This document shows positions 26,891 through 59,623 of a stretch of 64,000 nt of DNA, in pieces; position 1 is the stretch's first letter, and each line of letters opens with the position of its first letter. Below the pieces are notes generated by a model. That model was given only the letters and a program-made list of their open reading frames with translations, made no database searches and had not been told where the DNA came from. Origin of the DNA: Streptomyces sp. 11x1 (GTDB taxonomy: Bacteria; Actinomycetota; Actinomycetes; Streptomycetales; Streptomycetaceae). The translations under genes were made by a program, and so were the position numbers. The DNA is taken from assembly GCF_032598905.1 (NCBI RefSeq), contig NZ_CP122458.1, positions 682,001 to 746,000 of the forward strand. Reading direction: 5' to 3'.

Positions 26891-26920
26891 GCACAACGAC
26901 GCGCGTTATGCGCAACATGG
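26891..26920 (-). promoter_or_regulatory. Island operator site 1 (before reductase 1)
   Basis: CGCACAACGA and GCGTTATGCGCAACATG form an inverted half-site pair (GTTG/CAAC type) 32-61 bases upstream of the reductase start. Confidence 0.6.
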
Positions 26921-26960
26921 TTTCGGTGGATTTCCGAGGTGTCAAGGGGCCGGGGCGGGG

Positions 26961-28094
26961 TCAGTACGCGGGGCCCATGTCGAGCTTGCTCTGCAGCCAG
27001 GTGTGGAACTCGCCTATGTGGTGCTCGCTGGGCACCAGCACACCGCCCTTGGCGTAGGCCTTCGAGCTCATCGCCGGCTGGGTCCGCTCACAGGCGTCGA
27101 AGTCCTGCTGGTTCACCCGGTGGAAGAGCTCCACCGAGCGCTCCACGTCCTTGCCGCTCTCCACGACGTGCGGCAGGTACAGCCAGTCGCATTCGACGAT
27201 CGTGCGGTCGGCCGCCATCGGGTACATCCGGTGGAAGATCACGTGGTCGGGCACGAGGTTGATGAACACCTGGGGCTTGACGGTGATCGCGTAGTAGCGG
27301 CGGTCCTGGTCCTCGGCCACCCCCGGGATGCGGTCCAGCCCCTCGGAACCGTCGACGGTGAACCCCTGGACCTCCGCACCGAACTCCGCGCCGTGGCCCA
27401 CGTAGTACTGGGCCGCATACCCGTCCGCGAACTCCGGCAGCACCTCGGTCAGTTCGGGATGGATCGTGGCGCAGTGATAGCACTCCATGAAGTTCTCGAT
27501 GATCAGCTTCCAGTTCGCCTTCACGTCGTACGTGATCCGGCGCCCCACGGACAGGTTGCCGATGTCGTACCGCTCGATCGACTCCAGGTCGCCGAGCCGC
27601 TCGACGACCGCGCCCAGCACCTCCGCCTCGAAGGACGGCGGCTCGTCGGCCAGGCACACCCACACATAGCCGAGCCACTCCCGCACCTGGACGTTGACCA
27701 AGCCGTACTCGGTGCGGTCGATGTCCGGCATCGAGGTCAGGTTGGGCGCCGCGATCAGCTTGCCGTCCAGACCGTACGTCCAGGCGTGGTACGGACACTG
27801 GAAGGCCCGCTTGACCTCGCCCGACTCCTCGGTGCAGAGCCTGGCCCCGCGGTGCCGGCAGATGTTGAGGAAGGCCTTGATCGAGCCGTCCCGGGAGCGG
27901 GAGACGAGGACGCTCTCGCGGCCGACCTGGTAGGTGCGGAAGGCGCCGGGCTTGGCCAGTTCGGAGGCGCGGGCCACACAGAACCACATGGCCTCGAAGA
28001 CCAGCTCCTGCTCCTGGGCGAAGACTCCGGGGTCCGTGTAGTACTCGCCGGACAGCGTGGGGATCAGGCTGGGCGGCAGATTCGTGAGGGTCAT
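26961..28094 (-). CDS. gbcA: Rieske non-heme iron oxygenase, glycine betaine monooxygenase-like, copy 1
   Basis: 377 residues. The Rieske domain has CRHRG (Cys79, His81) and CPYH (Cys100, His103) for the [2Fe-2S] cluster. The catalytic domain has NFMECYHCATIHPEL, giving iron ligands His207 and His212, with Asp331 as a likely third. GbcA-type enzymes remove one methyl from glycine betaine, giving dimethylglycine and formaldehyde. The assignment rests on family resemblance plus context: BetA/BetB upstream in the pathway, DMGO downstream. It follows the MBL gene by 39 bases in the mscR1-mbl-gbcA operon, so the enzyme that makes formaldehyde is expressed with the one that removes it. Bases 27295-27584 are identical to copy 2. 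Confidence 0.88.
   Translation of the reverse strand: MTLTNLPPSLIPTLSGEYYTDPGVFAQEQELVFEAMWFCVARASELAKPGAFRTYQVGRESVLVSRSRDGSIKAFLNICRHRGARLCTEESGEVKRAFQCPYHAWTYGLDGKLIAAPNLTSMPDIDRTEYGLVNVQVREWLGYVWVCLADEPPSFEAEVLGAVVERLGDLESIERYDIGNLSVGRRITYDVKANWKLIIENFMECYHCATIHPELTEVLPEFADGYAAQYYVGHGAEFGAEVQGFTVDGSEGLDRIPGVAEDQDRRYYAITVKPQVFINLVPDHVIFHRMYPMAADRTIVECDWLYLPHVVESGKDVERSVELFHRVNQQDFDACERTQPAMSSKAYAKGGVLVPSEHHIGEFHTWLQSKLDMGPAY
27295..27584 (-). repeat. 290-bp tract identical to 51303-51592 (gbcA copies)
   Basis: No mismatch in 290 bases, including silent positions, while flanks differ. A second tract, 27757-27862, equals 51765-51870. Both copies are in the same orientation. Confidence 0.9.
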
Positions 28095-28133
28095 CGAGTC
28101 ACCTTCGGAAATTCGGGAAGCGGGGCGGGCGGT

Positions 28134-28766
28134 TCAGTGGCCGCGGGTGATCCACTCGTCGAGGTGGGGCGCCTCGGCCCCGATCGTGGTGGTGTCGCCG
28201 TGACCGGTGTGGACGGTGGTGTCGGCGGGGAGCGCCAGCAGCCGATCCCGGATGGAGACGATGATGGTGCCGAAGTCCGAGAAGGAGCGCCCGGTCGCGC
28301 CGGGGCCGCCCTGGAAGAGCGTGTCGCCGGAGAACAGGGCGTTCAGCGCGGGCGCGTGGAGGCAGACCGCGCCGGGCGAGTGGCCGGGGGTGTGCAGCAC
28401 CGTCAGCTCGACGCCGGCGACGCCCAGGGTCTCGCCCGCGGCCAGTTCACGGAACTCGGGCGCTCCCTCGCCGTGCGCCATCTTCCACAGGACGGTGTCG
28501 GCGGGGTGGAGCAGGATGGGCGCGTCGTGCCGGGCGGCCAGGGCCGGGGCGGCGTTGACATGGTCGTTGTGGGCGTGGGTGCACACGATGGCGACCAGGC
28601 GGCGGTCGCCGACGGCGGCGGAGATGACGTCCGCGTCGTGGGCGGCGTCGACGACGAGCACCTCCTCGTCGTCGCCGATCAGCCAGACGTTGTTGTCGAC
28701 CTCCCAGGTGCCGCCGTCCAGTGCGAAGGTGCCGGAGGTGACGAGGCGCTCGACGCGGGCGGTCAC
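28134..28766 (-). CDS. Metallo-beta-lactamase-fold hydrolase coupled to mscR
   Basis: A 210-residue glyoxalase II-like hydrolase. The binuclear metal motif is CTHAHNDHV (His64, His66, Asp68, His69), followed by [19 protein letters not shown] and the closing [11 protein letters not shown]. The GTG start overlaps the mscR1 stop in a GTGA, so translation is coupled. In Mycobacterium tuberculosis the mscR gene (Rv2259) is likewise followed by an MBL gene, Rv2260. The probable role is hydrolysis of S-formylmycothiol, made by MscR from formaldehyde, to formate and mycothiol; this is inference from pairing and thioesterase-like family. The second mscR at 58.5 kb has no such partner. Confidence 0.85.
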
Positions 28767-29848
28767 AGGACCACCACCGAACGCAGGACGTCGCCGTGGT
28801 GCATCTTGGCGAACGCGGCCTCGACGTCGTCCAGGCCGATGGTCTCGGTGACGAACTCGCCGAGGTCGAAGCGGCCCTGGAGGTAGAGGTCGATCAGGGC
28901 GGGGAAGTCGCGGTCGGGCAGGCAGTCGCCGTACCAGGAGGACTTCAGGGCGCCGCCGCGGCCGAAGACGTCGAGGAGGGGCAGTTCGAGCTTCAGCTCG
29001 GGCGTGGGGACCCCCACCAGGACGGCGGTGCCGGCCAGGTCGCGGGCGTAGAAGGCCTGCTTGAAGGTCTCGGGGCGGCCCACCGCGTCCACGACCACAT
29101 CGGCGCCGAAGCCGCCGGTGAGCTCCCGGATCGCCTCGACGGCGTCGGTCCTGGAGGAGTCGACGGTGTCGGTGGCACCGAACCGCTCGGCCCACTTCAG
29201 CTTCCGCTCGTCGACGTCGACGGCGATGATGCGGCCCGCTCCGGCGACCTTGGCGCCCGCGATCGCGGCCATGCCCACCCCGCCGCAGCCGATCACGGCG
29301 ATGGAGTCACCGCGTCCCACGCCACCGGTGTTGACCGCGGCGCCGAATCCGGCCATCACCCCGCAGCCGAGGAGTCCGGCGGCGGCCGGGGAGGCCATGG
29401 AGTCCACCTTGGTGCACTGTCCGGCGGCGACCAGGGTCTTCTCGGCGAAGGCGCCGATGCCGAGGGCCGGGGAGAGCGGGGTGCCGTCGGCCAGGGTCAT
29501 CGGCTGGGTGGCGTTGTGCGTGGCGAAGCAGTACCAGGGCCTGCCCCTGCGACAGGCGCGGCAGGTGCCGCAGACGGCACGCCAGTTGAGGATGACGAAG
29601 TCGCCGGGGGCGACGTCGGTGACGCCCTCGCCGACCGACTCCACCACGCCCGCCGCCTCGTGGCCGAGCAGGAACGGGTACTCGTCGTTGATCCCGCCCT
29701 CCCGGTAGTGCAGGTCGGTGTGGCAGACACCACAGGCCTGCACCCGCACCAGCGCCTCACCGGGGCCGGGGTCCGGCACCAGCACGGTCTCCACCGAGAC
29801 CGGGGCGCCCTTCTTGCGGGCGACGACGGCGCGTACCTCGTGTGTCAC
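28763..29848 (-). CDS. mscR: S-(hydroxymethyl)mycothiol dehydrogenase / S-nitrosomycothiol reductase, copy 1
   Basis: A 361-residue zinc dehydrogenase, the usual MscR length. Catalytic zinc residues are Cys42 ([15 protein letters not shown]) and His63-Glu64 (LLGHEAAG). The structural zinc cysteines are 93, 96, 99 and 107 ([15 protein letters not shown]). The NAD fold is [12 protein letters not shown] with VDVDE. It oxidises the spontaneous adduct of formaldehyde and mycothiol with NAD to S-formylmycothiol, and can also reduce S-nitrosomycothiol. Formaldehyde comes from the GbcA reaction encoded two genes downstream. It is the first gene of its operon, divergent from iclR1, with an operator cluster between. 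Confidence 0.93.
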
Positions 29849-29953
29849 GGTCGATCTCCTCGTCGAGGAAGGGAGGGGAGGGAGGGGGTGGGGGGAGGCA
29901 CTTCACCGGGTCCGGTCGGAGACCGTGGCCGGACCTTCGATCGTCGCGTTTCA

Positions 29954-29985
29954 TATAGTGCAACTATCTTCGCTATGAGCAACGA
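29954..29985 (-). promoter_or_regulatory. Island operator site 2 (before mscR1)
   Basis: TATAGTGCAACTA and CGCTATGAGCAACGA: two GCAAC half-sites 20 bases apart in direct order, about 106-137 bases upstream of mscR1. Confidence 0.6.
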
Positions 29986-30161
29986 CGACCAAACTGTCTC
30001 CTTGGGGACACCCCCTGTCAAGAGGTTGGTCGCGCCGACTTGTCCGCCCCCCTCGCCGCCTCCCCCTTCCCTGACCGGGAGGGTCCGTGCGAGCATGCGG
30101 GCGACTGGTTCCGGCCAAGGTCGCCGCACTCGGCGAACCCCTCGGAACCGCCGGGGCGACT

Positions 30162-30175
30162 GCGTATAGTTGCAC
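30162..30175 (+). promoter_or_regulatory. Island operator site 3 and leaderless promoter of iclR1
   Basis: GCGTATAGTTGCAC is identical to 50152-50165 before iclR2. TATAGT is a good -10 hexamer ending seven bases before the ATG, and no ribosome site exists, so the mRNA is probably leaderless and the site overlaps the promoter. Confidence 0.65.
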
Positions 30176-30176
30176 C

Positions 30177-30974
30177 ATGAGCAACTACGCTGCAGAGGGC
30201 GCAACAACGGCTCCCGCGGTGAACGGCGTGCAGTCCGTCGACCGTGCCGTCAGCGTCCTGGAGATCCTCGCCCAGCGCGGCGAGGCCGGGGTCAGCGAGG
30301 TCGCCGCCGAGATCGATGTCCACAAGTCGACCGCGTTCCGTCTCCTCGGGGCGCTGGAGGCACGCGGACTGGTCGAGCAGACGGCCGAGCGGGGCAAGTA
30401 CCGGCTGGGCTTCGGCATCGTGCGGCTCGCCGGCGCCGTCACGGGCCGGCTCGACATCACCCAGCAGGGCCGGCAGGTCTGCGAGCGGCTCAGCGAGGAG
30501 ATCGGCGAGACCGTCAACATCGCCGTGCTCCAGGAGCACTACGCGGTCAACCTCCACCAGGTACGCGGCCCGGGGGCGGTCGGCACCCACAACTGGGTCG
30601 GCCAGCTCACCCCCGTGCACGCCACGTCCAGCGGCAAGATCCTGCTGGCCCACCTCCCGGAGCGGGAGCGGGCCGAGGTGCTGGAGGCGTCCGGACTGCG
30701 CAAGCTGACGCCGCACACGCTGACGGCCAGGCCGAAGCTGGAGGAGGCGCTCACCGAGGCGCGCGAGCGCGGGTACGCGGTGACGCTGGAGGAGCTGGAG
30801 ATCGGACTGCACGCCATGGCGGCGCCGATCCGCTCCCGCGAGGGCGAGGTCGTCGCCGCGCTCAGCGCGTCCGGCCCGGCCTATCGCTTCACCGAGGAAC
30901 GCATCCGCGACCTCGTGCCCGTGCTGACGCGGGGCGCGGACGAGATCAGCCGCAGGATGGGCTATCTGGGCTGA
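30177..30974 (+). CDS. IclR-family regulator, copy 1
   Basis: 265 residues. The winged HTH is at about 22-80: SVLEILAQRGEAGVSEVAAE, then KSTAFRLLGALEARGLVEQ. A GAF-like effector domain follows (TVNIAVLQEHYAVNLHQVRG; SSGKILLAHLP; LHAMAAPIRSREGEVVAALS). IclR proteins bind promoter palindromes as dimers of dimers and respond to small catabolic substrates. This one and copy 2 at 50.2 kb are nearly the same protein, differing mainly at the N-terminus and in scattered positions. ATG 30177 is chosen over the upstream in-frame start because a -10 box lies directly before it. It ends in a 13-base convergent overlap with folP. Choline, betaine or sarcosine as ligand is inference. Confidence 0.92.
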   Translation: MSNYAAEGATTAPAVNGVQSVDRAVSVLEILAQRGEAGVSEVAAEIDVHKSTAFRLLGALEARGLVEQTAERGKYRLGFGIVRLAGAVTGRLDITQQGRQVCERLSEEIGETVNIAVLQEHYAVNLHQVRGPGAVGTHNWVGQLTPVHATSSGKILLAHLPERERAEVLEASGLRKLTPHTLTARPKLEEALTEARERGYAVTLEELEIGLHAMAAPIRSREGEVVAALSASGPAYRFTEERIRDLVPVLTRGADEISRRMGYLG

Positions 30975-31906: not shown

Positions 31907-31977
31907 CGGCCGCCGGCCTTCGACGGTCCGGCCTGCGATCGTCCGGCTCTCGACGCGCTGACAGGGACTCGCATGAC

Positions 31978-35866: not shown

Positions 35867-35878
35867 GTGTGGGGCTCC

Positions 35879-38067: not shown

Positions 38068-40583
<2,516 letters not shown>

Positions 40584-40662
40584 AATGTGCCTTCCGCACA
40601 GGTGGGTGTCAAGGGTCCCGGGACCGCGGAAAACAGGGGGCGGAAAGGGCCCGGACACGGCG

Positions 40663-41733: not shown

Positions 41734-46327
<4,594 letters not shown>

Positions 46328-46350: not shown

Positions 46351-46368
46351 TCGTTGCGCATCGTGCAC
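46351..46368 (-). promoter_or_regulatory. Island operator site 5 (before betB)
   Basis: TCGTTGCGCATCGTGCAC, 24-41 bases upstream of the betB start. Confidence 0.6.
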
Positions 46369-46494
46369 CCGATTGCTTGTGATGGAACACCCTGGTCGCT
46401 GGTCAGACGGACGTCAAGATGTTGACCGGTGACGATTTGGCCATGCGGCTACTTACCCACCCACCCTTGACCGCAAGCCACGGCGACCCGACCA

Positions 46495-46530
46495 TGTTGC
46501 GTATCGCTCACCATGTTGTGCAATACGCAC
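46495..46530 (+). promoter_or_regulatory. Island operator site 6 (before purU)
   Basis: TGTTGCGTATCGCTCAC and ATGTTGTGCAATACGCAC: two related copies 18 bases apart, ending 14 bases before the purU start. Confidence 0.65.
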
Positions 46531-46544
46531 CGACGGAGGCCACC

Positions 46545-47506: not shown

Positions 47507-48343
47507 TCAGGCGTCCAGCCGGTCGAGCAGGGACCGCCGCCACTTCTCCGTCTCCGCGATCTGGTTGAAGGTGAACAGGTGCAGGCCCGCCACCCCGGAG
47601 GCGTGGTCGGTGAGGGCGTTCTCCGCGCGCGTGAGCAGCTTCTCGGGCGAGTAGCCGCCGGGCGCGGCGAAGCGCACGAACCACGACGCGTGCTGGGCGA
47701 GGAAGCGGGTGGACTCCCCCACACCGATCTTCGTCGCCATCGCCATCAGCTTCGCGCGCTGCACGGGCCCGGCGACACCCACATGGACCGGCAGGGTCAC
47801 CTCCCGGCGCCGTACGCGGACGAGCCAGTCGGCGAGCACCCGCGGGTCGAAGCAGAGGTTGCTCACGATGTACGTGGCGTGCTCGCGCTTGTCCCACATC
47901 GCCTGGACGGTGATGTCGTCGTGGATGAGCGGATGGCTCTCGGGGTAGCCGGTGACGCCGACATGGCTGAACGGCCCGCCCAGCTCGCTCAGCCGGCGCA
48001 GCACCGGCAGCGCCCCGTCGTAGGGCCCGGCCGGCGGGTCCGCGTCGCCCGCCGGGACGAACACGTCGTCCACGCCCGCCTCGCGCAGCCGGCCCGCGAC
48101 CTCCTTCAGGTGCAGGTCGTCCCGCAGGAGCCGGGCGGGGACGTGCGGGACGACCCGGTAGCCGTGCGCGGCGAGCCGGCCCGCGAGGTCGAGGGTGGGT
48201 TCCAGGCCCTTGACCGGCGAGGCCGTCACGGTGACGACGACGTCGCGCGGGACATGGGCGAGGACCTTCTCCTCGGTGGCCTTCGCGGGCAGCACCTCGT
48301 AGCGCACCGTCTTCAGCAGGGTGCGCAGCCCCCCGGCGCCCAA
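47507..48343 (-). CDS. metF: Methylenetetrahydrofolate reductase-like protein
   Basis: A 278-residue TIM-barrel protein of the MTHFR family: RYEVLPAKATEEKVLAHVPR, DDVFVPAGDADPP, GVTGYPESHP, SNLCFDPRVLADWLVRVR and LHLFTFNQIAETEKW. MTHFR reduces 5,10-methylene-THF to 5-methyl-THF using FAD, linking betaine methyl carbon to methionine. It is somewhat short and its FAD motifs are diverged, so an F420- or methylene-THF-linked variant cannot be excluded. It starts at TTG 48343 (GGAG upstream), three bases after and in the same frame as the betA TAG stop, so it is tightly coupled to betA. Confidence 0.8.
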   Translation of the reverse strand: MGAGGLRTLLKTVRYEVLPAKATEEKVLAHVPRDVVVTVTASPVKGLEPTLDLAGRLAAHGYRVVPHVPARLLRDDLHLKEVAGRLREAGVDDVFVPAGDADPPAGPYDGALPVLRRLSELGGPFSHVGVTGYPESHPLIHDDITVQAMWDKREHATYIVSNLCFDPRVLADWLVRVRRREVTLPVHVGVAGPVQRAKLMAMATKIGVGESTRFLAQHASWFVRFAAPGGYSPEKLLTRAENALTDHASGVAGLHLFTFNQIAETEKWRRSLLDRLDA

Positions 48344-48346
48344 CGT

Positions 48347-50017: not shown

Positions 50018-50068
50018 GGTGCCTCGTCTCGCTCGCGCCGTAGATATGCGAGGCATGCTAGACCGGTA

Positions 50069-50102
50069 GCGCGATACGCACCAGGTTGCGAACCGCGCAA
50101 CC
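50069..50102 (-). promoter_or_regulatory. Island operator site 7 (before betA)
   Basis: GCGCGATACGCACC and GGTTGCGAACCGCGCAACC. The second is an inverted pair, GGTTGCG/CGCAACC, 67-85 bases upstream of betA. Confidence 0.7.
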
Positions 50103-50151
50103 TCTGGAACTTCGTTTCGCGCCGGTTACTTGCAGGTGTGTTGTTTACTGC

Positions 50152-50165
50152 GCGTATAGTTGCAC
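50152..50165 (+). promoter_or_regulatory. Island operator site 8 and leaderless promoter of iclR2
   Basis: GCGTATAGTTGCAC, the same 14 bases as before iclR1 and at the same distance from the start. TATAGT serves as -10; no ribosome site. Confidence 0.65.
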
Positions 50166-50166
50166 T

Positions 50167-50970
50167 GTGAGCAACTACAGCCTTGACACGGAAACGTCGA
50201 ATTCACACGCCGGCGCAGGTGGTGTGCAGTCGGTGGACCGCGCCATCAGCGTCCTGGAGATCCTCGCCCAGCGCGGCGAAGCAGGCGTCAGCGAGGTGGC
50301 GGCGGAGATCGAGGTGCACAAGTCCACCGCCTTCCGCCTTCTCGGCGCCCTGGAGGCACGCGGCCTGGTGGAACAGGCAGGCGAACGCGGCAAGTACCGG
50401 CTCGGCTTCGGCATCGTGCGGCTGGCCGGCGCGGTCACGGGTCGTATCGACATCACCCAGCAGGGCCGTCCCGTCTGCGAACGGCTGGCCGAGGAGATCG
50501 GCGAGACGGTCAACATCGCCGTGATGCAGGAGCATTACGCGATCAACCTGTACCAGGTGCGCGGACCGGGAGCCATCACCGCACACAACTGGGTGGGCCA
50601 GCTGACCCCCCTGCACGCCACGTCGAGCGGCAAGATCCTGCTGGCCCACCTGCCGGCGAAGGAACGCGCCACGCTGCTCTCGGACTCGGGCCTGAAGAAG
50701 GTCACCCCGCACACGATCACCGCGAAGACGAAGCTGGAGAAGAACCTCGCCGCGGCACGGGAGCGGGGCTACGCCTTCACCCTGGAGGAGTTGGAGATCG
50801 GTCTGCACGCCATGGCCGCACCGGTTCGCAACCGGGACGGCGAGGTCATCGCCGCCCTCAGCGCCTCCGGCCCCTCCTACCGATTCACCGAGGAGCGTCT
50901 GCACGAGCTGTCCTCGGTGCTGCTCGACGGCGCCGCCGAGATCAGCCACCGGATGGGGTTCCTGGGCTGA
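50167..50970 (+). CDS. IclR-family regulator, copy 2
   Basis: 267 residues, closely paralogous to the regulator at 30.2 kb. The HTH is ISVLEILAQRGEAGVSEVAA, then KSTAFRLLGALEARGLVEQA; the effector domain has TVNIAVMQEHYAINLYQVRG and SSGKILLAHLPAKERATLL. Recognition helices of the two copies are the same (VHKSTAFRLLGALE), so they should bind the same DNA, perhaps as mixed oligomers. Effector pockets differ by a few residues (VLQEHYAVNLHQ against VMQEHYAINLYQ). GTG 50167 aligns with the copy 1 ATG. It ends one base before the convergent gbcA copy 2 stop. Together they are the best candidates to control the island. Confidence 0.92.
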   Translation: MSNYSLDTETSNSHAGAGGVQSVDRAISVLEILAQRGEAGVSEVAAEIEVHKSTAFRLLGALEARGLVEQAGERGKYRLGFGIVRLAGAVTGRIDITQQGRPVCERLAEEIGETVNIAVMQEHYAINLYQVRGPGAITAHNWVGQLTPLHATSSGKILLAHLPAKERATLLSDSGLKKVTPHTITAKTKLEKNLAAARERGYAFTLEELEIGLHAMAAPVRNRDGEVIAALSASGPSYRFTEERLHELSSVLLDGAAEISHRMGFLG

Positions 50971-50971
50971 T

Positions 50972-52102
50972 TCACCCCTGAGAAGTCCCGAGGCGCTCGT
51001 TCACCCAGTCGTGGAACGCCCCGATGTGGTGCTCGCTGGGCACCAGCACACCGCCCTTGGCGTACAACCGCGAGCTCATGCCGGGCTGGGTCCGCTCACA
51101 TGCCTCGAAGTCCTGGAGGTTGACCCGGTCGAAGAGTTCCACGGACCGGCTGACGTCCTTGCCGCTCTCGACGACGTGCGGCAGGTACAGCCAGTCGCAC
51201 TCGACGATCGTGCGGTCGGCCGCCATCGGGTACATCCGGTGAAAGATCACGTGGTCGGGCACGAGGTTGATGAACACCTGCGGCCGGACGGTGATCGCGT
51301 AATAGCGGCGGTCCTGGTCCTCGGCCACCCCCGGGATGCGGTCCAGCCCCTCGGAACCGTCGACGGTGAACCCCTGGACCTCCGCACCGAACTCCGCGCC
51401 GTGGCCCACGTAGTACTGGGCCGCATACCCGTCCGCGAACTCCGGCAGCACCTCGGTCAGTTCGGGATGGATCGTGGCGCAGTGATAGCACTCCATGAAG
51501 TTCTCGATGATCAGCTTCCAGTTCGCCTTCACGTCGTACGTGATCCGGCGCCCCACGGACAGGTTGCCGATGTCGTACCGCTCGATCGACTCGACGTCGC
51601 CGAGCCGCTCGACGACCTCACCGATGACGTCCTCCTCGAAGGACGGCGGGTTCTCCGCGAGACAGATCCAGACATAACCGAGCCATTCGCGCACGGCGAC
51701 GCTCACCAGGCCGTACTCGGTACGGCCCACGTCGGGCATCTTGGTGAGATTGGGCGCCGCGACGAGCTTGCCGTCCAGACCGTACGTCCAGGCGTGGTAC
51801 GGACACTGGAAGGCCCGCTTGACCTCGCCCGACTCCTCGGTGCAGAGCCTGGCCCCGCGGTGCCGGCAGACGTTGAAGTACGCGCGGATCGAGTTGTCCC
51901 GGGCCCGGGTGACGAGGATGCTCTCGCGGCCCACGTCGACGGTGCGGAAGGCGCCGGGCTTCGCCAGCTCGGAGGCGCGGGCCACACAGAACCACATGGT
52001 CTCGAATATGTGCTCCTGCTCCTGGGCGAAGACCACCGGATCGGTGTAGGAGGAGCCGGGGAGAGTGGCGATCAGGCTGTCGGGCAGACCGGTCGAGGTC
52101 AC
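50972..52102 (-). CDS. gbcA: Rieske non-heme iron oxygenase, glycine betaine monooxygenase-like, copy 2
   Basis: 376 residues with the same cluster and iron ligands as copy 1: Cys79, His81, Cys100, His103, then NFMECYHCATIHPEL. The catalytic core differs from copy 1 by very few residues, while the N-terminus, residues 130-170 and the last 50 residues differ more. Both copies therefore probably act on the same or very similar betaines. GTG 52102 has GAGGAG eight bases upstream. The gene seems to be transcribed alone from operator site 9. The upstream reductase and ferredoxin genes have their own site 10. Confidence 0.88.
   Translation of the reverse strand: MTSTGLPDSLIATLPGSSYTDPVVFAQEQEHIFETMWFCVARASELAKPGAFRTVDVGRESILVTRARDNSIRAYFNVCRHRGARLCTEESGEVKRAFQCPYHAWTYGLDGKLVAAPNLTKMPDVGRTEYGLVSVAVREWLGYVWICLAENPPSFEEDVIGEVVERLGDVESIERYDIGNLSVGRRITYDVKANWKLIIENFMECYHCATIHPELTEVLPEFADGYAAQYYVGHGAEFGAEVQGFTVDGSEGLDRIPGVAEDQDRRYYAITVRPQVFINLVPDHVIFHRMYPMAADRTIVECDWLYLPHVVESGKDVSRSVELFDRVNLQDFEACERTQPGMSSRLYAKGGVLVPSEHHIGAFHDWVNERLGTSQG
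51303..51592 (-). repeat. 290-bp tract identical to 27295-27584
   Basis: The second member of the identical pair; together with 51765-51870 (106 bp) it marks recent sequence exchange between the gbcA copies, which are 24,008 bases apart in direct orientation. Confidence 0.9.
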
Positions 52103-52168
52103 GGGGCACTCCTCGGGGAACGTCGCGGAGGGGTGAGGCGGACGCCGGGAGGAACGCCTCCGGTCGGC

Positions 52169-52207
52169 GTTGTGCATGGAGCAACGCTGCGCGCTGTGGG
52201 CAACCGC
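52169..52207 (-). promoter_or_regulatory. Island operator site 9 (before gbcA copy 2)
   Basis: GTTGTGCATGGAGCAACG and GCGCTGTGGGCAACCGC. The first is an inverted GTTG/CAAC pair. Confidence 0.6.
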
Positions 52208-52232
52208 AGCATGGGGTGACGCCGGGGCGGTG

Positions 52233-53396
52233 TCAAGACGTGGTGGCGGCCAGCTCCTTGCGCACCCGCATGAACAGCCGCGGCTGGTTCATCCCGAGCA
52301 CGGCGACGGGCCGGCCTGCGCGCCGATAGACGGCGAGGACGTCGCGGCCCTCGGCCGAGCCCGCCTCGACGGTGACACTGTCGGCCTCGGCCGCGTGGCC
52401 GGCGAACTGGATACGGACGCCGTACTGGTCCGACCAGAAGTACGGCGGCCTGGGCACGCCGGGCTCAACGGCGCCCCCCGCCAGCAGGGTGGCGACGGCG
52501 GCCTCCGGCCGCTCGCGCGCGCCGGTCCAGTGCTCCACGCGGCGATGGTGGCCCGCGCGGGGGTCGTACCAGTTGGCGCAGTCGCCGACCGCGACCACAC
52601 CGGCGAGGCTGGTCCGGCCGTCGGCGCCGCACTTCACGCCATTGTCCAGCGCGATACCGGAACCGGCCAGCCACTCGACGCACGGCCGGGCCCCGACGCC
52701 GACGACGACGATGTCGGCGGGAATGCTGCGGCCGTCCTCCAGCAGGACGGCGTCGACCCGGTGCTCGCCGCTCAGGCCCTTGACCCCTACGCCGCACAAC
52801 AGGCGTACGCCGTGGTCGGCGTGGAGGCCGGAGACGACGGCGCCCATGGTGTCGCCGAGCGGTCCGGCCAGCGGGGTCGAGGCCGCCTCGACGACGGTCA
52901 CCTCCAGGCCGAGGGTGTACGCGGTGGAGGCGACCTCGGCGCCGATGAAGCCGCCGCCGATCACCACCAGGCGTCCGCCGCGGGCCAGTTCGTCCCGCAG
53001 GGCGCGGGCGTCGTCCAGGGTGCGCAGGGTGTGCACTCCGGCGAGGCCCTCCGAGCCGGGCAGGGCCCGCGCGACGGCGCCGGTGGCGATGACGAAGCCG
53101 TCGGCGCGCACCTCATGCCCGTCGGTGAGGCGGACGGTGCGCGCGGTGTGGTCGAGTCCGGTGGCGCGGGTGCCGAGCAGCCACTCGGCCGCCAGGTCCT
53201 CGCCGTCCGTCTCCAGGGCGAGTTCGGCCTCGCCCAGGGTGCCGGCCAGGAACTCCTTGGAGAGCGGGGGCCGGTCGTAGGGGCGGTGCAGTTCGTCGCC
53301 GATGACGACCAGGCGCCCGTCGAAGCCCTGCTTGCGCAGGGAGCGAGCCGCCGACAGGCCGGCGAGGGAGGCGCCGACCACGGCGACGGTTCTCAC
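52233..53396 (-). CDS. FAD-dependent NAD(P)H-ferredoxin reductase, copy 2
   Basis: A 387-residue paralogue of the protein at 25.7 kb, with [19 protein letters not shown] (FAD), [14 protein letters not shown] followed by TVVEAA (NADH), VGDCANW and the C-terminal YFWSDQYGVRIQFAG. The GTG start overlaps the stop of the Rieske ferredoxin gene as GTGA, so ferredoxin and reductase are made together. This makes a reductase-ferredoxin-oxygenase chain of the toluene dioxygenase layout: NADH to FAD, to the Rieske ferredoxin, to the GbcA Rieske centre. It probably serves both oxygenase copies, since only this module has a ferredoxin. Confidence 0.9.
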   Translation of the reverse strand: MRTVAVVGASLAGLSAARSLRKQGFDGRLVVIGDELHRPYDRPPLSKEFLAGTLGEAELALETDGEDLAAEWLLGTRATGLDHTARTVRLTDGHEVRADGFVIATGAVARALPGSEGLAGVHTLRTLDDARALRDELARGGRLVVIGGGFIGAEVASTAYTLGLEVTVVEAASTPLAGPLGDTMGAVVSGLHADHGVRLLCGVGVKGLSGEHRVDAVLLEDGRSIPADIVVVGVGARPCVEWLAGSGIALDNGVKCGADGRTSLAGVVAVGDCANWYDPRAGHHRRVEHWTGARERPEAAVATLLAGGAVEPGVPRPPYFWSDQYGVRIQFAGHAAEADSVTVEAGSAEGRDVLAVYRRAGRPVAVLGMNQPRLFMRVRKELAATTS

Positions 53397-53755
53397 GCGG
53401 GACCTCCGGCGAGCCTGGCGGAGATGCAGGGCGGCAGGTTCGGGGCGTCCGTGGAGAGCCGGACGTAGATCATGCCGTCCTCGACGACGACCTCGTGCGT
53501 CCGCACCGGCAGCTTGGCCGGCGGGGAGTCGACCGCGCCGGTGCGCAGGTCGAACTTGGAGGCATGCAGCGGGCACTCCACCTCGCAGCCCTCCAGCCAG
53601 CCGTCGGCGAGCGAGGCGTCCTGGTGGGTGCAGGTGTCGTCGATGGCGAAGACCTCGCCGTCGTCGGTGTGGAACACCGAGACCGGCGGGTCGATGTCGA
53701 GCCGGAAGGCCTCACCTCGCGGGAGATCCGCGAGACGGCACGCGGGAATCATCAT
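53393..53755 (-). CDS. Rieske-type [2Fe-2S] ferredoxin
   Basis: A 120-residue soluble Rieske protein. The cluster ligands are Cys42 and His44 in DTCTHQDASL and Cys61 and His64 in ECPLHASKFDL. The rest (HTDDGEVFAIDD, RLSTDAPNLPP) is the usual small beta fold of ferredoxins from three-component oxygenases and of NirD. There is no signal peptide or membrane anchor, so it is a cytoplasmic electron carrier. ATG 53755 (or 53752, MMIP start) has GAGGTG just upstream. It is first in the ferredoxin-reductase 2 pair and is preceded by operator site 10. It is the only ferredoxin gene seen in the island. Confidence 0.9.
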   Translation of the reverse strand: MMIPACRLADLPRGEAFRLDIDPPVSVFHTDDGEVFAIDDTCTHQDASLADGWLEGCEVECPLHASKFDLRTGAVDSPPAKLPVRTHEVVVEDGMIYVRLSTDAPNLPPCISARLAGGPA

Positions 53756-53767
53756 GACACCTCGGGT

Positions 53768-53803
53768 GCATATAGCGAAACGGATTGCGGTAAGCGCAAC
53801 ATC
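53768..53803 (-). promoter_or_regulatory. Island operator site 10 (before the ferredoxin gene)
   Basis: GCATATAGCGAAAC and TTGCGGTAAGCGCAACATC; the second is an inverted TTGCG/CGCAA pair. Confidence 0.65.
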
Positions 53804-53907
53804 AGTCTGGGGTCGCCCCGAACCCTTGTCAAGGCATCCTGAGGGCACCTCTGAGTCACTTCTCACGTTGCGACATCCACAACTCGCCTCACATAGAACA
53901 ACGCGAG

Positions 53908-53954
53908 CCCGGCGGGGTCGTGGCCGCGCGGGGCGGTGCCACGACCCCGCCGGG
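53908..53954 (-). terminator. Terminator of the BCCT gene
   Basis: Perfect 16-bp stem CCCGGCGGGGTCGTGG / CCACGACCCCGCCGGG with a 15-base loop, 18 bases after the stop. Confidence 0.85.
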
Positions 53955-53972
53955 CGGGCGGGTACGCCGGTC

Positions 53973-55727
53973 TCAGACGGCGGTGGTGGACTGCGCGGGC
54001 TCCTCGGTCCGCTGGGGCGGTACGGGCTCCGTGCCGTCCGCGGACGTAGCGGGGCCGATACGGAGTTCGAAGTCCCCGTCGTACTTCTCGTGGCCGGCGA
54101 TGACGGCCGTCTCGACGGCCTCCTTGCCCATGCGTCCGCGGATGATGAGCGGATCGTGGCGCAGATCCCGGTTGAGCGCGACGCACAGCCCGATCATCAC
54201 GAGGGTGAAGGGTGCCGCCGCGAGGATGGTGAGGTTCTGCAGCCCGGTGAGCGCGTCGCCCTTGCCGCCGCCGATGAGCAGCATGACGGCGGCGACCGCT
54301 CCGGTCAGCACGCCCCAGAACACCACGACGCCACGGGACGGTTCGAGGCAGCCCCGCTGCGAGAGCGTGCCCATCACGATGGAGGCGGCGTCGGCCCCGG
54401 AGACGAAGAAGATGCCGACGAGGATCATGACGACGATGCTCGTCACCGTGGCGATCGGGTACTGCTGGAGCACGTCGAAGAGCTGCCCCTGGGCGGTCGC
54501 GGCGTCGTTCAGCCGACCGGAGTCCTGCAGGTGCATCGCCGAGCCGCCGAAGACCGCGAACCAGAGCAGGCTGACGCTGCTGGGGACCAGGATGACTCCG
54601 CCGACGAACTGCCGGATGGTGCGGCCGCGGCTGATGCGGGCGATGAACATACCGACGAAGGGCGTCCAGGAGATCCACCACGCCCAGTAGAAGACCGTCC
54701 AGCCGGCCAGCCAGTCGGCGACGCCCTCGCCGCTGGAGGCCTCGGTACGGCCCGCCATCTGGGCCAGGTCGCCGAAGAAGGCACCGACGGAGGTGGGCAG
54801 CAGGTCGAGGATGAAGATGGTCGGGCCGACCAGGAAGACGAAGAGGGCGAGCCCCACCGCCAGCACCATGTTGGTGTTGGACAGCCACTGGATGCCCTTC
54901 TCGATCCCGGACACCGCCGAGGCGACGAACGCCACGGTCAGCACCGCGATCACGACGACCAGCACTCCGGTACCGGCCGAACCCAGCCAGCCCAGCCCGG
55001 TGAATCCGCTGCCGATCTGGAGGGCGCCGAGCCCCAGGGACGCCGCCGAGCCGAAGAGGGTGGCGAAGATGGCGAGGGTGTCGATGGCCCGGCCGGGCCA
55101 TCCGTTCACCCGCTTCTCACCGAGCAACGGCGTGAACACCGCGCTGATCAGCTGGCGACGACCGCGCCGGAAGGTGCTGTAGGCGATGGCGAGACCCACG
55201 ACCGCGTACATCGCCCACGGGTGGAGCGTCCAGTGGAAAAGGGTGGTGGCCATGGCGGTCTCCATGGCCTGGTTGGCGTCGGCCGGGTCGGTGCCCGGCG
55301 GCGGCGTGATGAAGTGGGAGAGCGGCTCGCTCACGCCGTAGAACATCAGGCCGATGCCCATGCCCGCGCTGAACATCATGGCGATCCACGACACCGTGCG
55401 GAACTCCGGCTCCTCCCCCTCCTTTCCGAGGGTGATCCGCCCGTAGCGGCTCATCGCCAGCCAGAGGGCGAAGACCACGAAGCCCGAGGCGGCGAGGACG
55501 AAGGCCCAGCCGCCGTTGCGGATCGTGCCGTCCAGCAGCTTCCCGGACACACTCTGCAAGGTGTCGGTCGCCGTGGCTCCCCACACGACGAAGGCCAGGG
55601 TGAGGGCAGCGGCGACACCGAAGACGACGGGGTCGGTCCGGGGGCGGGCGGTGGCCGCACCGCCTCCCGGCAGATCCTCCCCGATGGAAAGACCTGGGCT
55701 CCCGTTCCGTTCGCGGGTTGTGCTCAT
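53973..55727 (-). CDS. BCCT-family betaine/choline/carnitine transporter
   Basis: A 584-residue carrier with about 12 membrane helices. The BCCT glycine stretch is GMGIGLMFYGVSEPLSHF (TM3, sodium and betaine site), and the family tryptophan signature is WTVFYWAWWISWTPFVGMFI (TM8), with the tryptophans that form the substrate cage. The C-terminal cytoplasmic tail is about 50 residues, which in BetP-type members senses osmotic stress. It imports betaine or choline with Na+ or H+. It lies 88 bases downstream of the molybdoenzyme gene on the same strand. No island operator is visible in that gap, so it is probably co-transcribed with it. Confidence 0.93.
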   Translation of the reverse strand: MSTTRERNGSPGLSIGEDLPGGGAATARPRTDPVVFGVAAALTLAFVVWGATATDTLQSVSGKLLDGTIRNGGWAFVLAASGFVVFALWLAMSRYGRITLGKEGEEPEFRTVSWIAMMFSAGMGIGLMFYGVSEPLSHFITPPPGTDPADANQAMETAMATTLFHWTLHPWAMYAVVGLAIAYSTFRRGRRQLISAVFTPLLGEKRVNGWPGRAIDTLAIFATLFGSAASLGLGALQIGSGFTGLGWLGSAGTGVLVVVIAVLTVAFVASAVSGIEKGIQWLSNTNMVLAVGLALFVFLVGPTIFILDLLPTSVGAFFGDLAQMAGRTEASSGEGVADWLAGWTVFYWAWWISWTPFVGMFIARISRGRTIRQFVGGVILVPSSVSLLWFAVFGGSAMHLQDSGRLNDAATAQGQLFDVLQQYPIATVTSIVVMILVGIFFVSGADAASIVMGTLSQRGCLEPSRGVVVFWGVLTGAVAAVMLLIGGGKGDALTGLQNLTILAAAPFTLVMIGLCVALNRDLRHDPLIIRGRMGKEAVETAVIAGHEKYDGDFELRIGPATSADGTEPVPPQRTEEPAQSTTAV

Positions 55728-55815
55728 CAGCTCGTCCTTTCCACAGACGGCAGGGGACGTTCTCTGTCGCGGACGACGGCTGCGCGACCGAGCAGGCAGG
55801 GAAACGCGGGGCGCT

Positions 55816-58125
55816 TCACAGAAGAGCCGAGGTGGCGACCGGCTCCAGACGGACGACGATCGACTTCGACGTGGGGGTGTTGCTGATCGCCGCCGTGGAG
55901 TCCAGGGGGACCAGGACGTTGGTCTCGGGGAAATAGGCGGCGCAGCAGTCGCGGGGCGTCGGGTAGGGCACCACGCGGAAGCCCGACGCCCTGCGTTCCA
56001 CGCCGTCGTCGTACTCGCTGACGATGTCGACGAGGTCCCCGTCGGCCAGGCCGCGGTCGGCCAGGTCGTCGGGATTGACGAAGAGGACCCGGCGGCCCTG
56101 GTGGATGCCGCGATAGCGGTCGTCCAGGCCGTAGACGGTGGTGTTGTACTGGTCGTGGGAGCGGAGCGTCTGCAGCAGCAGCCGGCCCGGTGGCACGTGG
56201 GGGCTCTCCAGCGCGTTGGCGGTGAAGTTGGCCAGACCCGTGGCGGTGGTGAACCGGCGTTCGTCGCGGGGCGGGTGGGGCAGGGCGAAGCCGCCCGGCC
56301 GTCGCACCCGGTGGTTGAAGTCCTGGAAGCCGGGGATCACGCGGGCGATGCGGTCGCGAACGGTGTCGTAGTCCGCCTCGAAGTCCTCCCAGGGGATGTG
56401 CGCGCCCGCTTCCCCGAGCGCGGCCCGTGCCATCCGGCAGATGATCGCGACCTCGCTCAGCAGGTGTTCGGAGGCGGGGGTGAGTCGCCCTCGGGAGAGG
56501 TGCACCATGCCCATGGAGTCCTCGACCGTGACGAGCTGGGGCCCGCCGGGCCGCAGGTCGGCCTCGGTCCGGCCGAGGCACGGGAGGATGAGCGCCTGGT
56601 CGCCGGCGATGACGTGCGAGCGGTTGAGCTTGGTGGAGATCTGCACGGTGAGGCGGCAGTTGCGCAGGGCCCGCTCGGTCTGGTCGGTGTCGGGCGCGGC
56701 GGCGACGAAGTTGCCGCCGAGGGCGACGAAGACGCGTACGTCGCCGTCGCGCATGGCGCGGATACTCTCGACCGCGTCGTGGCCGTGGCGCCTCGGGGGC
56801 GTGAAAGCGAACTCGGCGCCGAGCGCGTCGAGGAACGCGTCGTCCGGTTTCTCGTAGATGCCCATGGTGCGGTCGCCCTGCACGTTGGAGTGGCCGCGCA
56901 CCGGGCAGAGACCGGCCCCGGGGCGGCCGATGTTGCCGCGCAGCAGGAGGAAGTTGACCACGTCCCGGATGGTAGGGACCGAGTGCTTGTGCTGGGTGAG
57001 GCCCATCGCCCAGCAGACGACGATCTTCTCGGCGGCCAGCACCTCGCCGAAGGCGGCCCGGATCTCCTCCTCGGGCAGACCGGTGGCGGAGAGGATCTCG
57101 TCCCACGGCGCCTTGCGGGCGTGCTCGGCGAACTCCTGGAAGCCGTGCGTGTGACGTTCGATGAAGGAGGTGTCGAGGCAGGTGCCGGGGGCCTCGTCCT
57201 CCGTCTCCAGCAGCATCCGGTTGAAGGCCTGGAACAGCGCCTGGTCCCCGCCCAGCCTGATCTGCAGGAACAGGTCGGCCAGGCGGGTGCCGCCACCGAG
57301 GACGCCGGACGGCTTCTGGGGGTTCTTGAACCGCAGCAGCCCCGCCTCGGGCAGGGGGTTGACCGCGATGATCCGGGCGCCCCGGCGCTTGGCGGTCTCC
57401 AGCGAGGAGAGCATCCGGGGGTGGTTGGTGCCGGGGTTCTGGCCGACCACCAGGATGAGGTCCGCGTCGTGGAGGTCCTCCAGGGTGACGCTGCCCTTGC
57501 CGATCCCGATGGTCTCCGTCAGGGCCGAACCGCTGGATTCGTGGCACATGTTGGAGCAGTCGGGCAGGTTGTTGGTGCCGAGCATCCGGACGAAGAGCTG
57601 GTAGAGGAACGCGGCCTCGTTGGCGGCCCGGCCGGAGGTGTAGAAGGCGGCCTGCTCGGGCCGGTCGAGCGCGGCGAGTTCACGGGCGATCACGGCGAAC
57701 GCGTCGTCCCAGGAGATCGGCCGGTAGCGGTCGTCGCCGGCCGCGCGGTACATGGGGTGGGTCAGCCGGCCCTGCTGTCCGAGCCAGTGGTCGCTGCCGG
57801 GGAGCAGGTCCTCCAGCGTGTGCTCGGCGAAGAAGTCCGGCGTGACCCGGCGGACGGTGGCCTCCTCGGCCACGGCCTTGGCCCCGTTCTCGCAGAACTC
57901 CGCCCGGTGGCGGTGCTCCGGCTCGGGCCAGGCGCACCCCGGACAGTCGAAGCCCTCCTTCTGGTTGACCCGGAGGAGGGTGAGCAGGCCCCGGCGGGCG
58001 CCCATCTGCTCGCCGGCGTGCCGGAGGGAGGAGGTGACCGCGGGGATGCCGGCGGCGTACTCCTTCGGGGGGCCGACCCGCAGCCGGGCGTCGCCGGGGT
58101 CCTCGACAGGTGCGTTGCGAGTCAT
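55816..58125 (-). CDS. FdhF/YdeP-family molybdopterin oxidoreductase (formate dehydrogenase-like)
   Basis: 769 residues, the usual length of this family. An N-terminal segment has EGFDCPGCAWPEPEHR (Cys61, Cys64) and Cys78, a possible metal or cluster site. The Mo-bis-MGD core shows SWDDAFAVIARELAALDRPE, GSALTETIGIGKGSVTLEDL, LVVGQNPGTNHPRMLSSLE, CWAMGLTQHKHSVPTIRDVV and GNIGRPGAGLCPVRGHSNVQ. The C-terminal MGD barrel starts LQTLRSHDQYNTTVYGLDDR. True formate oxidation is not certain for this family (YdeP is linked to acid resistance), but context with purU, mscR and fdhD supports formate to CO2. ATG 58125 is preferred; GTG 58137 is possible. Confidence 0.85.
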   Translation of the reverse strand: MTRNAPVEDPGDARLRVGPPKEYAAGIPAVTSSLRHAGEQMGARRGLLTLLRVNQKEGFDCPGCAWPEPEHRHRAEFCENGAKAVAEEATVRRVTPDFFAEHTLEDLLPGSDHWLGQQGRLTHPMYRAAGDDRYRPISWDDAFAVIARELAALDRPEQAAFYTSGRAANEAAFLYQLFVRMLGTNNLPDCSNMCHESSGSALTETIGIGKGSVTLEDLHDADLILVVGQNPGTNHPRMLSSLETAKRRGARIIAVNPLPEAGLLRFKNPQKPSGVLGGGTRLADLFLQIRLGGDQALFQAFNRMLLETEDEAPGTCLDTSFIERHTHGFQEFAEHARKAPWDEILSATGLPEEEIRAAFGEVLAAEKIVVCWAMGLTQHKHSVPTIRDVVNFLLLRGNIGRPGAGLCPVRGHSNVQGDRTMGIYEKPDDAFLDALGAEFAFTPPRRHGHDAVESIRAMRDGDVRVFVALGGNFVAAAPDTDQTERALRNCRLTVQISTKLNRSHVIAGDQALILPCLGRTEADLRPGGPQLVTVEDSMGMVHLSRGRLTPASEHLLSEVAIICRMARAALGEAGAHIPWEDFEADYDTVRDRIARVIPGFQDFNHRVRRPGGFALPHPPRDERRFTTATGLANFTANALESPHVPPGRLLLQTLRSHDQYNTTVYGLDDRYRGIHQGRRVLFVNPDDLADRGLADGDLVDIVSEYDDGVERRASGFRVVPYPTPRDCCAAYFPETNVLVPLDSTAAISNTPTSKSIVVRLEPVATSALL

Positions 58126-58218
58126 CTGAAGCGCCACACTCCGGGATGTAGGGGAATCGGAGCCGTTCCGTGTCGCCGGGCCTCTCGGCCCGGCGGGCGG
58201 GCCGCCGCCGGACATCGG

Positions 58219-58256
58219 GGTTGCGAACTGCACAACAGTGCCGCGATACGCAACGA
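58219..58256 (-). promoter_or_regulatory. Island operator site 11 (before the molybdoenzyme)
   Basis: GGTTGCGAACTGCACAAC and GCGATACGCAACGA, 94-131 bases upstream of the start. Confidence 0.65.
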
Positions 58257-58463
58257 GAACAAGAAAGCGTGACGCGTGATCCCTGTCAAGACCGGCGCGG
58301 CACCGGATCGACACGCGGCGCCACGGCCGGACGCGCCGCCGGCCGACCGCGGCTCGGGTCCCGGGACACGGCGACGAGCCGTGGTCGGGCGTCCGACCGC
58401 GGCTCGTCCGTCGCGCTCCGCGGCTACGCCGACGTGGCCGCGGTCCGCTCTGTCACCCGCCCG

Positions 58464-59549
58464 TCAGAGGACCACCACCGAGCGCAGGACGTCGCCGCCG
58501 TGCATCCGCTCGAAGGCCTTCTCGACCTCGCCGAGCGCGATGGTCTCCGTGACGAAGGTGTCCAGGTCCAGGCGCTTCTGCAGATAGAGGTCGATGAGCA
58601 TGGGGAAGTCGCGGTCGGGCAGGCAGTCGCCGTACCAGGAGGACTTCAGGGCTCCGCCACGGCCGAAGACGTCCAGGAGGGGCAGTTCGAGCTTCATCTC
58701 CGGAGTCGGCACGCCGACGAGAACGACCGTGCCGGCCAGGTCACGGGCGTAGAAGGCCTGCTTGTAGGTCTCCGGGCGGCCGACCGCCTCGATGACGACG
58801 TCGGCGCCGAAACCACCGGTCAGCTCGCGGATCGCCTCGACGGCGTCGGTCTCGCGGGAGTTGACGGCGTGGGTGGCGCCCAGCTTCCTGGCGGTTTCCA
58901 GCTTGTGGTCGTCGATGTCCACCGCGATGATCTTCGCGGCGCCCGCCAGCTCGGATCCGAGGACCGCCGCGGCGCCGACGCCGCCGCAGCCGATGACGGC
59001 GACCGTGTCGCCCCGGCCGACGTTCCCGGTGTTGATCGCGGCCCCGATGCCCGCCATCACCCCGCAGCCCAGCAGTCCGGCCACCGCCGGCGACGCGGCC
59101 CGGTCGACCTTGGTGCACTGGCCCGCGGCGACGAGCGTCTTCTCCGCGAAGGCGCCGATGCCCAGCGCCGGGGAGAGCTCGGTGCCGTCGAGCAGGGTCA
59201 TCTTCTGCGTCGCGTTGTGGGTGGCGAAGCAGTACCAGGGTCGACCGCGCCGACAGGCCCGGCAACTGCCGCACACCGCACGCCAGTTGAGGATGACGAA
59301 ATCACCGGGTGCGACATCCGTGACCCCCTCCCCCACCGACTCCACCACACCGGCCGCCTCATGGCCGAGCAGGAAGGGGAAGTCGTCGTTGATCCCGCCC
59401 TCGCGGTAGTGCAGATCGGTGTGGCAGACCCCGCAGGCCTCGACCTTCACCAGCGCCTCACCCGGCCCGGGGTCCGGCACGACGATCGTTTCCAGGCTGA
59501 CGGGGGCACCCTTGCCCCGCGCGACGACAGCACGGACCTGGTGAGCCAT
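58464..59549 (-). CDS. mscR: S-(hydroxymethyl)mycothiol dehydrogenase / S-nitrosomycothiol reductase, copy 2
   Basis: 361 residues, a close paralogue of the enzyme at 28.8 kb, with the same zinc residues: Cys42 ([15 protein letters not shown]), His63-Glu64, and cysteines 93, 96, 99 and 107 ([15 protein letters not shown]). NAD fold [15 protein letters not shown] with VDIDD. The two copies differ mostly in the central NAD domain, and the ends are nearly the same. ATG 59549 has GAGGAG upstream. There is no MBL hydrolase after this copy, so formate release would depend on copy 1's partner. It has its own operator, site 12. Confidence 0.92.
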
Positions 59550-59591
59550 GGCCACTCCTCGGCTGGTACGAGACCTGCGTCTGATGTTTCT

Positions 59592-59623
59592 CATCGCGAT
59601 ACGTATAGCGCGTACCGCAACAC
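59592..59623 (-). promoter_or_regulatory. Island operator site 12 (before mscR copy 2)
   Basis: CATCGCGATACGTATAGCGC and GCGTACCGCAACAC, 43-74 bases upstream of the start. The rightmost site found. Confidence 0.6.

Follow-up and report, generated by a model that had tools for sequence, protein, structure and literature searches.

A stretch of 64,000 nucleotides of the Streptomyces sp. 11x1 genome (contig NZ_CP122458.1, positions 682,001 to 746,000; here called the window) contains a choline/betaine catabolic island in which one tandem inverted repeat recurs at the promoters. To judge from sequence comparison, an autoregulated IclR-family repressor very likely has this repeated site as its operator and would control the pathway from choline and glycine betaine to glycine and serine. 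The unit is a 17 bp inverted repeat, GTTGC-N7-GCAAC, which usually occurs in tandem with a 19 bp period, giving a 36 bp operator with four half-sites. What was computed directly is where the sites lie and how they are built, that they are confined to the island, conserved and in register with the promoters, and that they are inherited together with the IclR gene.

In the window, which is 70.6% GC, GTTGC-N7-GCAAC with up to 2 mismatches has 41 matches where 27.6 are expected, and none of 100 shuffles reached 41. A first-pass annotation of this DNA had described a half-site, RTRCGCAAC, at 12 promoters. A site is indeed present at all 12, and at one further place (53867), but the consensus as written is not enriched in the window (up to 1 mismatch, 52 matches against 42.7 +/- 6.9 expected, with 11 of 100 shuffles reaching 52) and the true unit is the longer symmetrical one, which was first spotted by eye in the promoters. 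The five sequences quoted in that annotation lie at, or within one base of, the positions given for them. A palindrome with a 5-base spacer was rejected, having no enrichment (2 matches, 3.5 expected).

Motif discovery by expectation maximisation (EM), assuming one site per region, found the same operator. A first run gave 338 bits against at most 150 in 12 shuffled sets, using regions that were cut after the sites had been seen and 60 starts for the real set against 25 for the shuffled. With fixed regions (-200 to +20 of the 12 gene starts) and equal numbers of EM starts the result was 335 bits. Under these conditions 20 shuffles averaged 150 bits and peaked at 167, and a set of 12 other upstream regions from the window gave 179. 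The motif from the fixed regions is GTTGCGCAtagCGCanntcGTTGCgCnATGaGCAAC. This run chose the operator in 10 of the 12 regions; the betA region yielded the overlapping or neighbouring iclR2 operator, and the molybdoenzyme site was missed. In a leave-one-out test with a position weight matrix (PWM) at fixed spacing, none of the 62,571 background positions scored as high as the site itself for 10 of the 12 sites; the iclR1 site was beaten by 1 background position and the molybdoenzyme site by 7. The molybdoenzyme site is missed by the methods with a fixed 36 bp frame because its period is 18 bp.

When spacings of 18 to 20 bp were allowed, with a PWM built from 11 of the detected sites, 13 places scored at least 20. 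All are within 26.9-59.6 kb and the next best place scored 12.3. The 13 places are the 12 promoter regions already named and 53867-53902, a third copy at 40565 being counted with dmgO. The tandem period is 19 bp at 11 of them, 18 bp at the molybdoenzyme and 20 bp at iclR1. The predicted operators and the two regulator genes are given below, with the promoters written as -35 hexamer, spacer and -10 hexamer.

26881..26916, minus strand: tandem operator of reductase 1 (EM, PWM)
26917..26945, minus: promoter of reductase 1, TTGACA, 17 bp, AACCAT
29948..29983, minus: tandem operator of mscR1, the strongest site (EM, PWM)
29993..30021, minus: promoter of mscR1, TTGACA, 17 bp, GACAGT
30169..30185, plus: 17 bp operator covering the iclR1 start codon (pattern scan, PWM)
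30189-30205 and 30150-30166, plus: weak 17-mers near the iclR1 operator, the former its partner 20 bp downstream, the latter upstream
30165..30170, plus: TATAGT -10 element 6 nt before the iclR1 ATG, putative leaderless promoter (sequence, same pattern at iclR2 orthologs)
30177..30974, plus: iclR1, IclR-family regulator, 265 aa (Pfam PF09339, PF01614)
40546..40581, minus: tandem operator of dmgO, with a weak third 17-mer farther upstream, from 40584 (EM, PWM)
40584..40612, minus: promoter of dmgO, TTGACA, 17 bp, CACATT
46353..46388, minus: tandem operator of betB (EM, PWM)
46389..46417, minus: promoter of betB, TTGACG, 17 bp, CAGGGT
46467..46495, plus: promoter of purU, TTGACC, 17 bp, GACCAT
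46496..46531, plus: tandem operator of purU (EM, PWM)
50066..50101, minus: tandem operator of betA, with no TTGACN upstream and a TAGCAT downstream that is conserved in relatives (first EM run, PWM)
50140..50175, plus: tandem operator covering the iclR2 start codon (EM, PWM)
50155..50160, plus: TATAGT -10 element 6 nt before the iclR2 GTG, putative leaderless promoter (sequence)
50167..50970, plus: iclR2, IclR-family regulator, 267 aa (Pfam, AlphaFold model, Foldseek)
52169..52204, minus: tandem operator of gbcA2 (EM, PWM)
52208..52236, minus: promoter of gbcA2, TTGACA, 17 bp, CATGCT
53765..53800, minus: tandem operator of the Rieske ferredoxin (EM, PWM)
53804..53832, minus: promoter of the Rieske ferredoxin, TTGACA, 17 bp, CAGACT
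53867..53902, minus: second tandem operator, upstream of the first ferredoxin operator, absent from the first-pass list (tandem scan, genome scan)
58220..58254, minus: tandem operator with 18 bp period, before the FdhF/YdeP-type molybdoenzyme, whose gene start is putative (tandem scan)
58261..58289, minus: promoter of the molybdoenzyme, TTGACA, 17 bp, TTTCTT (weak -10)
59586..59621, minus: tandem operator of mscR2 (EM, PWM)
59624..59652, minus: promoter of mscR2, TTGACC, 17 bp, GATGCT

The operators are in register with the promoters. At 9 of the 13 a TTGAC[ACG] hexamer begins 29-38 nt upstream, where 0.23 would be expected over 11 offsets. Each of these nine promoters has a 17 bp spacer to its -10 hexamer, which fits nAnnnT in 8 cases; the operators of iclR1, iclR2 and betA and the second ferredoxin site have no TTGACN upstream. 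In relatives, 320 of 424 distinct operators have a TTGACA-like hexamer 28-42 nt upstream, followed by nAnnnT at spacer 17 in 59% of these promoters and at spacer 18 in 25%. At most operons the operator starts right after the -10 box and therefore covers the likely transcription start site. At both iclR genes there is probably a leaderless promoter inside the operator, which would lie over the -10 box and the start codon; all 78 iclR2 orthologs that have an (A/G)TG-AGC-AA start, from 80 loci, carry a TATAGT-type TANNNT at a distance of exactly 6 nt upstream of the start codon. These positions would suit a repressor, and it is from position that we infer repression. A second tandem site about 100 bp from the ferredoxin operator recurs in several relatives, and the pairing suggests looping or a second promoter.

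Across the 10.67 Mb genome there are 12 exact GTTGC-N7-GCAAC sites, 4 of them in the 33 kb of the island. A 36 bp search pattern, derived from the window's own sites and those of relatives and allowed up to 3 mismatches, occurs at 12 places in the island, which do not include the molybdoenzyme site, and at 11 elsewhere, with about 10 expected from base composition; the reversed pattern, used as a control, has 9 strand matches in the whole genome. When 23 loci outside the island were scored, 22 reached at most 15.4. The other, L116 at genome position 5278281, reached 22.4 and was dropped as an operator and regarded as a false positive of the scan; it has two GTTTCACGTGAAAC sequences 19 bp apart, which we take to be parS. 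Both motif discovery and a genome scan had been proposed in the first-pass annotation, which held that a motif as frequent at random in the genome would speak against the idea. The discovery run stands well above its shuffles and the other upstream regions, and the places found outside the island are close to the number that chance provides, so the scan does not refute the idea.

The operator is conserved in relatives. In 80 loci around IclR2 orthologs (1.49 Mb) the window PWM finds 521 positions of at least 22 bits, against none in a single first-order Markov copy. In loci having the site, the half-site columns of the six best-sampled genes are 0.87-0.94 conserved against 0.64-0.78 for the flanks, the site picked for betB and iclR2 often belonging to the divergent neighbour. 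The operator precedes the operon leaders purU (61/61), betA (72/73), iclR2 (86/89), fdx (85/89), mscR2 (64/68), betB (70/77), mscR1 (11/14), dmgO (47/55), betT (9/12) and gbcA2 (50/79). For genes that are operon-internal in the window it is found before 4 of 460 starts (eleven genes 0/391, unk278 3/65, sdaA 1/4). A set of 37 fetched regions contains 117 tandem sites scoring at least 16, against 1.0 per Markov copy. In 20 further regions none of the 43 tandem sites falls within a recognised regulon gene, and 19 of the 20 have at least one; the L211 region (G243) has no tandem site and its IclR sits on another contig. Operators precede the same genes in other Streptomyces and in other actinobacterial families carrying homologous IclR genes. 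Gene order differs among these relatives and the operator stays with the genes.

The site is also inherited together with the regulator gene. In a sample of 100 genomes, including that of the window, with an IclR homolog threshold of E <=1e-60 and the pattern at 2 mismatches, gbcA is present in 27 genomes, 26 of which have the IclR homolog; the pattern is found in 25 of those 26, and the PWM finds two good tandem sites in the 26th (G032). G058 has gbcA and dmgO homologs, no IclR homolog at 1e-60 and no operator in the 20 kb fetched (L178), and is a natural case of regulator loss. By hand tally, the 73 genomes without gbcA include 19 with a pattern match and 11 with a match to the reversed control. 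Over the class, gbcA is present in 32 of 246 genomes. All 28 gbcA-bearing genomes outside the first sample have an IclR homolog (E <=1e-50) and 25 have the pattern; in the three where the pattern was missed (G172, G295 and G297) tandem sites were found by PWM.

A distant IclR clade, with 45-50% identity to IclR2, was seen at loci L182, L183 and L194 (G002, G021 and G055). These genomes have GTTTC-type operators with 18 bp spacing beside the clade's own iclR gene, and at each locus a distant gbcA-like gene (29-30%) is 2-4 kb away. The GTTTC variant is accompanied by an Ala-to-Val change in the recognition helix, but a recognition code is not claimed because G077 has this Val yet GTTGC-type sites.

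Both regulators of the window, IclR1 and IclR2, score above cutoff for PF09339 (helix-turn-helix, HTH) and PF01614 (C-terminal effector domain). They had been called nearly identical; overall identity is 78%, with 56 of 60 residues identical in the HTH and 148 of 189 in the effector domain. The nearest named orthologs of IclR2 are from S. caniscabiei and S. scabiei; others lie at loci L081 (S. canus), L027 (S. antibioticus) and L096 (S. lincolnensis). In a 35-row tree IclR1 and IclR2 fall in two supported ortholog clades. Each clade has members from the window, G007, G013 and G049, which dates the duplication before these species diverged. IclR2 is the constant partner of the operators; some operator-bearing genomes lack IclR1, among them G040 and G022, where the IclR2-type gene stands alone. 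The AlphaFold model of IclR2 (pLDDT 83.6, pTM 0.66) matches IclR structures in Foldseek with a best E of 1.2e-24 and a TMq of 0.62, the fit being loose over the full length, with domains turned; its effector domain alone matches the E. coli glyoxylate regulator with a TMt of 0.93. The best-scoring curated model is the BhcR equivalog NF045644.1, at 193.6 and 200.1 bits against a cutoff of 350, followed by PcaR/PcaU/PobR (TIGR02431.1), at 164.4 and 159.4 bits against a cutoff of 284.75; both proteins are below both cutoffs.

BetI belongs to the TetR family and GbdR to the AraC family, both unrelated to IclR, and GbdR regulates choline/betaine catabolism in Proteobacteria. BetI is likewise a regulator of choline/betaine catabolism in Proteobacteria, as described in the excerpted text of PMC12442346, and neither BetI nor GbdR was identified among the annotated island genes. 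The closest likeness is to the group 1 operators of the IclR family, subgroup GTT-11-AAC, in the available text of Suvorova and Gelfand 2021 (PMC8222616). There the consensus is GKTYCRYW3-4RYGRAMC, and for 94 orthologous groups tandem sites with a spacing of 18-22 nt are described and interpreted as tetramer sites. The island operator shares the odd-length inverted repeat of 17 bp with GTT...AAC ends, the tandem copies 18-22 nt apart centre to centre, and the location at or just upstream of gene starts. The main text of that paper does not contain the words choline, betaine or sarcosine, and its reference list includes a structure paper on TtgV with cooperative DNA binding of tetrameric regulators in its title. 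TtgV itself (PDB 2xro) has an IclR-family fold that matches the IclR2 model but regulates an efflux pump. BhcR of Paracoccus denitrificans, whose model scores best yet far below cutoff, belongs to a different pathway, that of glyoxylate and the beta-hydroxyaspartate cycle (PMC11323563, in excerpt). GylR of Streptomyces is, in the portion available of PMC9732521, an autoregulated IclR-family repressor with a palindromic operator; its operator is 18 bp with another sequence, and its pathway is that of glycerol. Literature searches of open-access papers, judged by titles and abstract starts, listed none on an IclR regulator of betaine catabolism. The regulon appears to be new, while its tandem IclR operators are of a kind already known (PMC8222616, main text).

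The island's IclR proteins are the predicted, and indirectly well supported, binders of the common operator, because both iclR genes carry it, its architecture is IclR-like and the site travels with the IclR gene. The regulon would take in uptake, BetA and BetB, the betaine monooxygenase, dimethylglycine and sarcosine demethylation, formaldehyde and formate oxidation, and the folate one-carbon enzymes. The two 17 bp inverted repeats of an operator have their centres 19 bp apart, about two helical turns, which could allow a tetramer, or a cooperating pair of dimers, to bind on a single face of the DNA; the repressor is probably tetrameric. At most operons IclR would occupy the operator directly downstream of the -10 box and block initiation over the likely start. 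At the iclR genes it would lie over the -10 box and the start codon of a leaderless message, which would give autoregulation. We infer, together with this binding and blocking, that a compound of the pathway releases IclR from the operator.

Other explanations were weighed against this one. That the motif arises by chance or from the base composition of high-GC promoters is scarcely credible, even though the RTRCGCAAC string itself is not enriched and unrelated upstream regions of the window slightly exceed the shuffles in the EM (179 against at most 167), since all the tandem tests oppose it, including the shuffle, Markov and operon-internal controls. A regulator encoded outside the island might bind the sites, with the iclR genes merely co-regulated targets; regulator genes can themselves be regulon members. 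However, the operators accompany the IclR gene in other families and where loci are rearranged, none is present at the single pathway locus fetched from a genome without such an IclR, the distant IclR clade has its GTTTC variant adjoining its own gene, the architecture is IclR-like by comparison with the available text of PMC8222616, and no other regulator family was identified among the annotated island genes, all of which makes an outside regulator very improbable. Somewhat less remote, and still unlikely, is that the operator is real and IclR-bound and that IclR is an activator or a dual regulator, like PobR and PcaU. Activators do occur in the family, and PobR and PcaU are called such in the title of a work cited by PMC8222616; the PcaR/PcaU/PobR model is second-best for both proteins, though below cutoff. 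Against this, most of the operators follow the -10 box closely and cover the likely start, instead of lying upstream of the -35.

An autoregulated IclR repressor therefore remains the preferred explanation, and a division of work between the paralogs would extend it rather than replace it. IclR2 may provide basal repression while IclR1 shares its operators and answers a second metabolite or forms mixed tetramers. The HTH is better conserved between them than the effector domain (56/60 against 148/189), there are two supported ortholog clades, and G040 and G022 keep the operators with an IclR2-type gene only; on the other side, the divergence of the effector domains may be drift, and the division is a tentative suggestion.

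Several points weigh against the repressor reading and its generality. Members of the IclR family can also be activators. The iclR1 operator is a single strong 17-mer, and neither the betA operator nor the second ferredoxin operator is downstream of a recognisable TTGACN promoter. Coverage in relatives is poor for fdhA (4/11), red1 (2/4) and, by the tandem criterion, iclR1 (1/5), and the relatives are not independent; some named loci and some of the genomes may be of the same strain. The comparison with a pathway that has no IclR rests on one genome, G058. Conversely, six genomes have an IclR homolog without gbcA, and five of these lack the pattern at 2 mismatches (G002, G003, G017, G021 and G027); by PWM, G003 and G017 have one weaker site beside the IclR gene, G027 has none, and G002 and G021 have a GTTTC-type site. 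Finally, length, symmetry and most positions agree with the published group 1 consensus, but position 4 of the island operator is mostly G (GTTGC), with C at its mirror, where the text available of PMC8222616 has Y (GTTYC) and R.

Profile searches of the window proteins place the island at approximately 22.9-59.6 kb. It contains genes for serine ammonia-lyase, serine hydroxymethyltransferase, two ferredoxin reductases, two GbcA-like Rieske oxygenases, a dimethylglycine-oxidase-like protein, a choline/betaine ABC transporter, a Rieske ferredoxin, a BCCT transporter and an FdhF/YdeP-type molybdoenzyme, as well as two mscR genes, soxB/DA/G, folD, betB, purU, betA and the two IclR genes. With BetA, BetB, GbcA-like proteins, SoxBDAG and choline transporter genes it is a choline/betaine catabolic island. 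Curated cutoffs are passed by betA, soxA, soxB, soxD, choW and choV (the last as the proV subfamily), and both mscR genes score above theirs. BADH (588.8 against 668.6) and soxG (126.6 against 143.95) fall short, and the GbcA-like proteins, at 222 and 227, are below the GbcA equivalog cutoff of 670. The iclR/gbcA/reductase/mscR set is duplicated within the island (25678-30974 and 50167-59594), with operators in both copies. A 672 aa transporter permease at 41734-43752 has two permease domains on a single chain. Downstream of betA, a 278 aa protein (47507-48343, minus strand) has a sub-threshold match to methylenetetrahydrofolate reductase (MTHFR; 22.7 bits, cutoff 24) and is possibly a one-carbon enzyme of the regulon. 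No family was matched in an Rfam scan of the window.

To our knowledge, the regulators of betaine demethylation described so far are in Proteobacteria. The actinobacteria now gain a concrete candidate for a master regulator of this process and for its operator. The predicted regulon takes in uptake and demethylation, the disposal of formaldehyde and formate, and folate enzymes, and therefore predicts which genes belong together, including the MTHFR-like orphan. It may be, although the chances are put at below even, that a single IclR subfamily is the class-wide repressor of the choline-to-serine pathway in betaine-demethylating Actinomycetia, acting through a strict four-half-site operator over the transcription start, and that some Streptomyces have two paralogs, alike in the DNA-reading helix but diverged in the effector domain, which share the operators and so integrate two metabolites on one site. 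The island would in any case allow a compact test of the way in which a single set of operators is shared by duplicated repressors.

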